Source of the DNA: Adineta ricciae
Lineage: Eukaryota; Rotifera; Eurotatoria; Adinetida; Adinetidae
DNA length: 64,000 bases
Direction: 5' to 3'
Assembly (NCBI GenBank): GCA_905250025.1
Contig: CAJNOJ010000091.1
Coordinates: 186,001 to 250,000 of the forward strand
The notes under the pieces are model-generated. The model saw only the letters and a list, made by a program, of their open reading frames with translations. It was not told the origin of the DNA and did not search any database. The translations under genes were made by a program, and so were the position numbers. Of this stretch, positions 3,328 through 63,474 are shown piece by piece. Within the stretch, counting starts at the first letter, position 1; the number at the start of each line of letters is the position of its first letter.

Positions 3328-4215
3328 ATGGCAGATGAATTCTTTGAATATCTAACTGGCTATCGATCCTCGTGCAAATATCATTGTCAAGGAAATGTGA
3401 ACATTATTCTTTCTGCACCACATGGAGGAAATCAAATGCCCGATGATGTATCTGATCGAACGGAAGGTATATGTAATGATCAATCAGAAGTTCGACGTTA
3501 TCGAACGACGGTGGTGAAAGATTCTCGAACTGATGAATTTGCTGAAAATGTTGCGAATGCATTAAAATCAAAGTGGAACTTCAAACCATTTGTTATTATT
3601 GGTAAATGGCATCGTATAAAAGTCGATTTCAATCGTCATATACATGAAGGAACATTGAATCATTCAGAAGCAATATCTGCTTATCATAGTTATCATTCGT
3701 ATTTGAATAATGCAATTGAACAAGTTAATCAATTGTTTGGAAAAGGACTTCTTATCGATATTCATGGTCATTCCAAAGGAAAGTAAGGAAAGATTTTCAA
3801 TATTCTAGGAAAATTCCAGACTTATTCTTTTAGTTATGCTATGATTGGATATACGCTATCGAGTGATCAATTGAATCAAGATGATCTATCGGATTCTTCG
3901 TTTCAAACATCGATCGAATCGTTATGTTCAACAAATCGTAATGAATGTATTCGTGGTGAGAATTCCTTTGGAAATATATTCGAACGAAATGGTTTAGGTA
4001 TCGCTTATCCCTCATTACTCAATCCAAAACCGGAAGAGCGAACATATTTTGCCGGTGGATATATCGTTCGACATTATTTATCGAAGATCAACACTATTCA
4101 AACAGAATTAGCGTACAGCACACGGATGGGACCAGATGCGCTTGAAAATGCACAACTTTTTGCGCAAACTATTGTAGAATATATGAATAAGTATAATTTG
4201 TTGAAATCACGATAA
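3328..4215 (+). CDS. N-formylglutamate amidohydrolase-like protein
   Basis: Two exons, 3328-3782 and 3834-4215, with a 51-base intron; the join makes the sequence HGHSKGNYAMIGY. The product has 278 residues. The motif SAPHGG near the N-terminus and LLIDIHGHSKG near residue 145 match the metal-binding motifs of the N-formylglutamate amidohydrolase / zinc peptidase-like fold, and ELAYSTRMG lies near the C-terminus. Bacterial members hydrolyse N-formyl-L-glutamate in histidine breakdown; what the animal proteins act on is not established. The start is the first in-frame ATG at 3328. It sits 194 bases after the previous stop, behind an AATAAA at about 3237 and a TTCTAG acceptor-like site at about 3267. 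A further upstream exon cannot be excluded. Confidence 0.72.
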
Positions 4216-60372: not shown

Positions 60373-61907
60373 TTATAATGAAAGAGGTTTCTTTTCAAGA
60401 AGATTCTTCCAATTGAATGGTACATCAATATCACAAGTTCGCACTTGTTCGGAAATGTCCGGTCCAAGGGGTGATCGACCTTCAGGCACAAGATTGTCGG
60501 GCATTTCGGATAGAACATTCAAAGACCGCTGATACCGTTCGATGCCGTTCCTTGATAAGAATGAAAGCGAGAATTTTAGATGAAAAATAGAGGCTAGGAA
60601 AGCTCACCAAGCAATCATAATGCCATTATCAGTGCATAATTGCGGTGGTGGACAAACAAGTTTAACGCCATAGTGAGCGCATAGGTCGTGAATACGTTGT
60701 CGAAGGTACAGATTACTGGATACACCTCCTGACAAAACCTAAATAGATGTCAATTCAAACGAGTTTTTCAGTTTTTTTCAATGTACTTACAAGCGTGCGT
60801 TTCCATTGAGGTTTTTTAATGGCATCACAGAACAGTATTGCGCGATGAATACGTGTTTCGATATGTCGAACCACACTTGCTTGGACACACGCAGCAAAAT
60901 CTTTCAACTGTTGTTCATCGGAAGTCGTTGATCCTAACAAAACATTTCTGAATGGTACGATAAATACGATTGAAATTTACGTACCACAATAGATTGCTTC
61001 TTTGTCGACAACTCGAATAATTTGAGATAACATTCCGCCGAAACTGAACGAACAATCTTTCATTTTAGCGGAATATTTTGGCGTGATCAATTGGTATCGA
61101 CTTTCGTCACCATCTCGAGCTAACCGTCCGATAGCTGCTCCTCCGGCCATATCACGAACAAGTGCATGTTCGTGCAGTTTCATTGCTCGAGCACTCTAGA
61201 CCAATCACGAGTCCATTTACCAACATAAATTCTTCATTAGCCTTACTTTATCGAGCGCTTCTCCTGGTGCAATATCTTTCGTTTCACCTAACCGGTTGAA
61301 TTTATCCACATCTTCTACAATTCCCAAAATACAATGGCCACCACTGGCCAATAAAACCATATACGGGAAGGAAACGCTACGAAAACCAACATCCGTTGAA
61401 GACGTACAACAAATAAGTAATTTACTTGTGGGTTAATCGAACAGTAAGCGCATGTGCTTCCATATGGTGAATGGGAATAAATGATAAATGGGAATATTTA
61501 TGGAGAAGTTGTCGAGTAAAATTTATTCCTTGCCATAACGAAATCACCAGACCTGGTTTGACACTTGTGGCAATCGCGGCAATTGTCTAGACTAAATCAA
61601 AGCAACATGTATTGACTCGTTTGACAGAGATGTTCAGTTGCGGCACGCAATCACTCACATTCCATTCGATATCTTTCATCGTCTCAGCAACGACTGGTAC
61701 TAGATTTTCATAATGATGCTTTTTGGCGATACTTGGTACAATTCCACCCCACGGTTGATGATATTTCAATTGACTTCGATATACTTCACTCAGAATGGTT
61801 CGTTCACTGTCAACAACAGCTGCAGCTGTATCGTCACAACTTGTTTCGATACCTAGGATTCTCAATGGATGAGGAAATCGATGTGTCGATAGACGTCGTA
61901 TGATCAT
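60373..61907 (-). CDS. OSGEPL1: Mitochondrial tRNA N6-adenosine threonylcarbamoyltransferase (Qri7/OSGEPL1)
   Basis: Seven exons: 61659-61907, 61426-61586, 61247-61376, 60985-61195, 60791-60933, 60608-60738, 60373-60550; 400 residues, against 414 in human. The start MIIRRLSTHRFPHPLR is a likely mitochondrial presequence. The ASKHA core follows with ILGIETSCDDTAAAVVD, GGIVPSIAKKHH, the metal site HHMEAHAL, LLASGGHC, GEALDK, and VLSGGVSSN. It transfers threonylcarbamoyl to A37 of tRNAs reading ANN codons, giving t6A in mitochondria. The ATG directly follows an acceptor (CCATTGAATAG) with an AATAAA just upstream, 186 bases after the last AP-1 sigma stop codon on the same strand. Confidence 0.93.
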
Positions 61908-61930: not shown

Positions 61931-62093
61931 TTTTTATTGCACTCTGTATTAAAATCAAGATCAATCATCATATGACATTCTCAGTTTTTCAAAATCATTG
62001 CACGATAAAAAGAGAGAAGAGATAGCAGCACTAATATACAACGAAACGAGATGAAATCAAACGTCAAACAAGAACGATCATTGTCGTGGTTCA

Positions 62094-63474
62094 TTACGCA
62101 AAGCCAAGGTCTTCGAGTACACTGCGTTTTTCTTCCAATTCTTCCTGCAAAATATCAAGGAAAGCACGTTAGATTATAATCAATCAATATGTTCACGTCA
62201 AAACAAAGCACATTCACGAACACATACATCAAAAGCATGAAAAACGATAAATTCGTGCAAATATTGTATATTTTTATTTGATTACTCAGCGTGTTTGACA
62301 TATGTGAAAACGGAAAACTTCGAGATGCAACTGTTGCTAAAGACAACACTAAGAAGAAGAAGAAGAAGAAGAGAATTCTCTGGAAAAGTTCAAATCTGAC
62401 TAAATAATAAACGCGAATTGTTCATGAAAACTGAAAAACACAACGAAAGATATTCCGAATACAAAACACATGCAAAATGAAGCGTGCGTGTCTTTATATG
62501 TCAAATCATCATCAGAGCTGGATATGCTTATCCAAGACCATGATCTTCAAAAAAACCCTGCGGTGTTTCTTCCTAGAAATAGATAGATACAAAAAGGACA
62601 TAAGCGAGAAAGCATGGCTCAATGCGGAGAGAAGGAAAAAGTTATCGCGCTGAAATTTTATTCCGAAGAAAAGGAGAATTTCGATTATTTTCAAGAGCAA
62701 GCATCTTTATAAGTAGGAAAATCAAATCAATCCGTATTCATAGAGTGTTTCTTGGAGTTGATCATCCTAGGAATGATACATTGCAAAGCGTGTTTTAGAT
62801 GTCGTTCACTGATGAGTAAATAACTTGGAATTTCGAATCTATCGATCATCAGAAAAGGATTTTCGAATACAAAACTCACCTCTTGAATGATGTCTTGATC
62901 ATTGATAGCTTTCAGAACGCTTTTTTTACTTGTTTCTTGAATTTCTCCGCCAAGGATGAATTCATCGAAGATGAAATAAGCTTTTTCAAAGTTGAAAATA
63001 ATATCCAATTCACAAACCTATCGACAATCTCATAGTTAAACAAGATGATATTCACATTCACTTACACTGCCGAAGTACTTATCGAGCAATTCCACATAAC
63101 GATGAATGGTTTCCAATGTTAGTAGTTCATTATCATCTTGTTCTATCGCACAACAAAAGTAAAGACTAGCATATCTAAATGACAGTAGAAATGTCGACAT
63201 CTAACTGGGGAAGAATGTGTTTTTTTTACCGTTTGTAGACTACTTTCAGATCTTTCCATTCGAGAAAGCTTGACATTTTTGGTTTACGTGAAAGAACTGC
63301 CGCGATCAATTCACGTGTGATCTTCTTCTTCGACTTCTCCGTTTGCGGTGTGTACCATTTTTGTAAACGAAGTTTGCCCTGTCGACTGAACAGAAGAATA
63401 AATTGAATCTAAACAAATATGATCAGTTCAGCATTGCACAACGTAAGGCAAATAGCTATTCCGATATTTACCAT
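62094..63474 (-). CDS. AP1S: AP-1 complex sigma subunit with three candidate last exons
   Basis: Common exons: 63472-63474 (only ATG), 63230-63408, 63066-63174, 62880-63017. The core is unmistakable: [75 protein letters not shown] and [16 protein letters not shown]. It is the small chain of the clathrin adaptor that sorts cargo between the trans-Golgi and endosomes. After the donor behind IIQE there are three acceptor-led tails: 62722-62766 ([14 protein letters not shown]), 62528-62572 ([14 protein letters not shown]) and 62094-62144 ([16 protein letters not shown]). Each starts in phase 0 and ends in its own stop. The last is the closest to the usual AP-1 sigma ending. Proteins of 157, 157 and 159 residues would result. 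Confidence 0.92.
62351..62372. repeat. (AAG)n microsatellite
   Basis: Seven AAG units in the intron between the second and third AP-1 sigma tail exons. Confidence 0.85.

Follow-up and report, generated by a model that had tools for sequence, protein, structure and literature searches.

Can a single gene for an AP-1 sigma subunit supply several alternative carboxy-terminal tails? The question is raised by a locus of the bdelloid rotifer Adineta ricciae, where a complete AP-1 sigma coding region (contig CAJNOJ010000091.1, positions 63474-62094, minus strand) offers more than one way to end the protein. Positions refer throughout to the window, that is, to the whole analysed stretch of 64,000 nucleotides of that contig. 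The first-pass annotation of this DNA had described three consecutive last exons after one common donor at 62880, encoding tails of 14, 14 and 16 residues, and the arrangement was reproduced here in its coordinates, acceptors, phase 0 and stop codons as well as in the tail lengths (Table 1; the exons are designated T1, T2 and T3 in order from the donor). In the reading that we consider probable, the locus is a single AP-1 sigma gene whose last exons lie in tandem and are mutually exclusive; it would provide two or three tails, each with its own stop.

Table 1. Coding exons, tail exons and candidate polyadenylation signals of the AP-1 sigma locus (positions in the window)
Feature	Position	Strand	Remarks
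Coding exon 1	63472..63474	-	ATG alone, then donor GTAAAT
Core exon 2	63230..63408	-	AP-1 sigma
Core exon 3	63066..63174	-	AP-1 sigma
Core exon 4	62880..63017	-	ends at common donor GAG/GTGAGT
Predicted alternative last exon T1	62722..62766	-	14 residues, acceptor CCTAG, phase 0, own stop
Candidate poly-A signal AATAAA for T1	62657..62662	-	59 nt past stop; kept in A2
Predicted alternative last exon T2	62528..62572	-	14 residues, acceptor TCTAG, phase 0, own stop
Candidate poly-A signal AATAAA for T2	62273..62278	-	249 nt past stop, GT-rich DNA further on; kept in A2
Canonical last exon T3	62094..62144	-	16 residues, acceptor TGCAG, phase 0, own stop
Candidate poly-A signal AATAAA for T3	61933..61938	-	155 nt past stop

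The core shared by all predicted products comprises 143 codons (429 nt in frame), with its last base at the common donor. Three copies of the gene were found in the genome, namely the window copy (A), a close twin (A2) and a diverged copy (B), and the split that leaves the ATG alone in the first coding exon is readable in each of them, the donor after it reading GTAAAT in A, GTAAGT in A2 and GTACGT in B. The common donor is ATTCAAGAG/GTGAGT in A, where 62880 is the final exon base, GAA/GTAAGT in A2 and GAG/GTAATT in B. The protein obtained by joining the core to T3 matched PF01217 (Clat_adaptor_s) with an E value of 2.3e-58 and 196.6 bits, against a cut-off of 22.5, and the match ended at residue 138 of the 158-residue query (taken without Met). 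Thus, the tails lie outside PF01217. Among solved structures, the best bit scores were obtained with sigma-1A (260.9) and AP-1 sigma-3 (239.2), followed by AP-2 sigma (139.6) and the more distant AP-4 sigma (108.6) and AP-3 sigma (96) chains. The gene product is of the AP-1 sigma type, nearer to AP-1 sigma than to AP-2, AP-3 or AP-4 sigma. The AP-2 sigma chains (141-142 residues) align to query residue 134 only, whereas T3 reaches the end of sigma-1A (1w63/4p6z) in an alignment that covers query residues 2-158; judged by its sequence, T3 is the canonical sigma-1 tail.

All three tails carry a net charge of -4, as does the tail of sigma-1A, and they differ in their content of Ser, Thr and Tyr (T/Y/Y in T1, T in T2 and S in T3). 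When T1 or T2 was substituted for T3 in the phmmer query, the sigma-1A alignment still extended to query residue 156/157. Against AP-1 sigma-3 (7ux3), the alignment ran to residue 152 with T1, to 146 with T2 and to 143 with T3 (query without Met), which suggests a faint likeness of T1 to that chain, to which we attach no weight.

Short open frames after an AG are common, and T1-T3 might be nothing more than chance frames of this kind in an AT-rich intron. For a null set, both strands of the 64-kb window were searched, and all [CT]AG sites with a phase-0 open reading frame of 12-18 residues directly after them were collected; there are as many as 423 such candidates, 3 of which are T1-T3. The ending [DE]xG[LFI](x), a pattern picked after the tails had been seen, occurs in 3 of the 423, and these are T1, T2 and T3. 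Scored against the sigma-1A tail, T1 reaches 17, T2 26 and T3 39, compared to a best score of 9 among the other 420 candidates, and the T1 peptide of copy B falls within the null (score 3). Scored against T3, T2 reaches 14, above all 420, and T1 reaches 9, a value equalled or beaten by 2 of the 420; the protein score between T1 and T2 is likewise 9, equalled or beaten by 1 of the 420. Both strands were also scanned in 14 of 27 loci; the remaining 13 lie within the three AP-1 sigma loci and are shorter. No tail-like exon was detected in any of the 11 loci (some of them overlapping) around other sigma-like matches, and the three AP-1 sigma loci showed their own tails only. Chance is barely credible as the source of the three exons, given that the tail-like ending is confined to them, that their match to sigma-1A lies outside the null and that such an exon is missing from the surroundings of the other sigma-like matches; the purely synonymous differences of A2 from A and the retention of T2 in B, described below, speak against it as well. 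On the sequence evidence, the anatomy of T1-T3 is beyond chance, and we return to the reading of one gene with alternative last exons.

A search of the genome with the DNA of the gene returned A2 (contig C119, 94% identity) and B (contig C194, 78%), so that the whole genome holds at least three copies. Bdelloid rotifers are described, in the part of the source covered, as degenerate tetraploids with close former alleles and more diverged ohnologs, the printed averages at non-synonymous positions being 1% and 27%, respectively (PMC6264785). The pairs A/A2 and A/B fit this two-level pattern, not its figures. A tetraploid would be expected to have four copies; the one that was not found is absent, unassembled or was overlooked in the search. 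A rotifer telomere repeat sought in this genome did not stand out from its reversed control (38 against 44 matches) and does not serve to identify the animal. The region upstream of the gene looks alike in A and B, with an open frame ending LMTAV in both.

One donor followed by several in-phase acceptors, each leading to its own stop, is present with T1-T3 in A and A2 and with T2 and T3 only in B. The three in-phase terminal exons of the window copy thus recur in its 94% twin, with only synonymous differences: the peptides of T1, T2 and T3 are identical between A and A2, and all 7 substitutions in the tails (2 in T1, 2 in T2 and 3 in T3) are synonymous and fall on codon position 3. Divergence between and just past the tails is 3-8%, and the changes in the core are 12.0 synonymous against 1.0 nonsynonymous (pS 0.14, pN 0.003). 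The simulated chance of an all-synonymous outcome is 0.049 for T1, 0.058 for T2 and 0.014 for T3, with a joint product of ~4e-5 for the three tails and of 0.003 for T1 and T2; the signal of each tail comes from 2-3 substitutions, and that of T1 by itself is borderline. A (TTC)n run in the T2-T3 interval (window ~62350-62373) is 6 nt longer in A2 than in A.

Copy B provides the more distant comparison. Its core is intact and differs from that of A with pS 0.66 and pN 0.026. MAFFT left T2 and T3 of B unaligned with those of A, and the two exons were picked from the B sequence and from the genome search match. B keeps T2 as VETPQGLIDEYGLG followed by a stop, with acceptor and frame preserved and 8 of the 14 residues the same as in A, and this exon is the best counterpart of A T2 among 303 acceptor-preceded 45-mers in the B locus. 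Between A and B, T2 shows pS 6.0/9.3 and pN 7.0/32.7. The acceptor and stop of T3 are also kept in B, where this tail again has 16 residues, and T3 differs by 8.0/10.0 synonymous and 2.0/38.0 nonsynonymous changes. With pN of 0.21 for T2, 0.05 for T3 and 0.026 for the core, T2 is moderately constrained, less so than the core or T3. Because T2 and T3 are kept in B, both are older than the A/B split. The stretches between the donor and the successive tail exons are much shorter in B than in A (113/83, 149/68 and 383/158 nt for A/B; L006, ~3749-4198), and the spacing between the tail exons is 68 and 158 nt in B versus 149 and 383 nt in A.

These numbers bear on a further reading, in which protein is made with T3 alone, T1 and T2 being either relics or poison exons whose inclusion would lower the sigma dose via a minor or unstable product. 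Such a role would agree with T3 being both the canonical tail and the one with the strongest A/B conservation (2.0 nonsynonymous changes out of 10.0), and with the pN of T2 compared to that of the core. We nevertheless hold it to be very improbable: at a core pS of 0.66, T2 has kept more than half of its residues together with its frame, acceptor and stop, and a poison exon needs a stop only, not a sigma-like tail that scores 26 where the null maximum is 9. Use of T2 as an alternative to T3 remains part of the reading that we favor.

The position of T1 is different. Its acceptor is present in B, the stop is lost and the frame stays open for 58 residues; A T1 and B T1 share 28 of 45 bases, the best value among the 303 acceptor-preceded 45-mers of the B locus, and 11.0 of the 15.0 changes in the sense codons are nonsynonymous (11.0 on 34.5 sites, versus 4.0 synonymous changes on 7.5 sites). 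A frame-breaking change in a relative had been named in advance as an observation that would count against the additional tails; such a change is found in T1, the stop of which is gone in B, and T2 is kept. Of the three copies, only the similar pair A and A2 has an intact T1, which may either have decayed in B or have become functional only in A. It could accordingly be that T2 and T3 are the only true alternative last exons, and that T1 is a decaying duplicate still open in A and A2. The lost stop and the mostly nonsynonymous changes in B would fit such decay, as would the fact that T1 is the tail least like T3 (a score reached by 2 of the 420 null candidates) and that its A/A2 signal consists of 2 substitutions only. 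Both of these substitutions are synonymous, the acceptor, frame and stop of T1 are intact in A and A2, and T1 scores 17 against sigma-1A where the null stops at 9; we regard the restriction to two tails as unlikely, yet as the most serious competitor of a gene with T1 included.

The signals around the tail exons were inspected for the manner of their use. GTAAG and GTGAG are absent from the intervals after T1 and T2 in all three copies, so that terminal exons fit better than cassette exons. A does have weaker GT[AG] sites, a single one past T1 and 11 past T2; one of them (GTAATC) is close to the core donor of B (GTAATT), and given these donors T1 and T2 may also be used as cassettes. Each tail of A is followed by a candidate AATAAA. 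The distances past the stops in A2 are as in A for T1 and T3, and 255 nt for T2; all three copies have an AATAAA no more than 300 nt past the stop of T3. In B, no AATAAA occurs between T1 and T2 or between T2 and T3, and own poly-A sites for the two upstream tails are thus not conserved. The chance of an AATAAA per interval is ~0.13 (T1), 0.10 (T2) and 0.08 (T3), and its presence lends weak support to own poly-A sites. Taken together, the lack of strong donors and the AATAAA motifs after the tails would point to competition among the last exons, polyadenylation being early or late. The next gene downstream, also on the minus strand, starts at window 61905-61907, ~25 nt past the AATAAA of T3, and reads MIIRRLSTHRFPHPLRILGIETSCDDTAAAVV; it resembles OSGEPL1/Qri7. 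This gene adjoins A and A2; around copy B, a search of 8 kb (~3.8 kb of it past T3) did not reveal it.

Under the favored reading of tandem, mutually exclusive last exons, splicing would join the common donor to T1, T2 or T3. With splicing to T1 or T2, the transcript would end at a poly-A site past that exon, and where both are skipped, it would continue to T3. The adaptor core of the product would not change, and would carry one of three acidic tails beyond the small-chain domain, so that the fold should be unaffected. T2 and T3 are kept in both lineages, and T1 is intact in the A lineage only. We infer that the tails would change partner binding or phosphorylation and not the assembly of the complex. 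Tuning of partner binding, which the first-pass annotation had also raised, is suggested by analogy, because in mouse ArfGAP1 is bound by sigma-1A and Rabex-5 by sigma-1B (PMC4944158). Nowhere in the part of that paper covered (12 of 22 places) is the binding of ArfGAP1 or Rabex-5 assigned to the sigma-1 tail, and no function for this tail came up in the passages on sigma-1 that were covered.

As to the origin of the additional tails, the first-pass annotation had seen in them duplicated and diverged versions of the same exon. A T1 and B T2 share 25 of 45 bases, which agrees with this view and exceeds the best non-self match (23) among 2524 acceptor-preceded 45-mers of the window. The likeness does not extend to A T1 and A T2 (19/45) or to A T2 and B T1 (21/45), the latter falling below an unrelated 45-mer of the same locus (23), and unrelated 45-mers reach 23-24 matches. 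There are hints that T1 and T2 may be old tandem copies, which would probably stem from duplication of a tail exon before the split between the A and B gene copies. We tentatively propose a broader scenario, which we consider possible without giving it even chances: tandem duplication of the last exon before the A/B split would have created a three-way choice of tails in one invertebrate AP-1 sigma gene, splicing would do the work of the three vertebrate genes, and the copies would now be dividing the tails among them, three in A and two in B. The contrast between three intact tails in A and two in B offers a small test of how isoforms are divided among gene copies.

The arrangement was also compared with what is known from other genes and organisms. 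Relatives of the 128-residue core were not found to be encoded in viral_contigs or genome_contigs (6 and 23 pattern stretches, respectively, none confirmed); these collections consist of viruses and prokaryotes, and the negative result therefore says nothing on conservation in animals. Titles and beginnings of abstracts were searched on sigma-1 isoforms, tails, duplicated terminal exons and bdelloid splicing (15 of 27,715 entries for the last), a set with most subscription journals outside its scope, and none of them dealt with tandem last exons of AP-1 sigma; the tail peptides, searched as text, gave no paper either. Alternative last exons coupled to alternative polyadenylation are a known general kind, with which the rotifer locus has in common a shared donor, competing terminal exons, an own stop for each and possibly an own poly-A signal. 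The rotifer locus differs in that a single tail seems to be present in diverged forms, one per terminal exon. Single AP1S genes of human and fly have annotated isoforms with alternative C-termini, and should these annotations hold, the rotifer case would be one more instance of a known habit and its novelty would be limited.

The closest known counterpart is sigma-1A (AP1S1; 1w63, 4p6z), which is the same protein with the tail at the same position. In the parts of the literature covered, isoforms of AP subunits in general are attributed to different genes or to alternative splicing (PMC8806629), and the sigma-1 variety of mammals or vertebrates is treated as a matter of three genes (PMC11525306, PMC10138411). 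The rotifer gene appears to offer three versions of the tail where human sigma-1A, 1B and 1C are three genes (PMC11525306). The paralogues AP1S1, AP1S2 and AP1S3 likewise give an animal several versions of sigma-1. However, sigma-1A and AP-1 sigma-3 differ over the whole protein, whereas the predicted rotifer versions differ in the last 14-16 residues only. A fixed core with a swapped tail would amount to a natural experiment in which the tail is set apart from the remainder of the subunit, something that the vertebrate paralogues do not provide.
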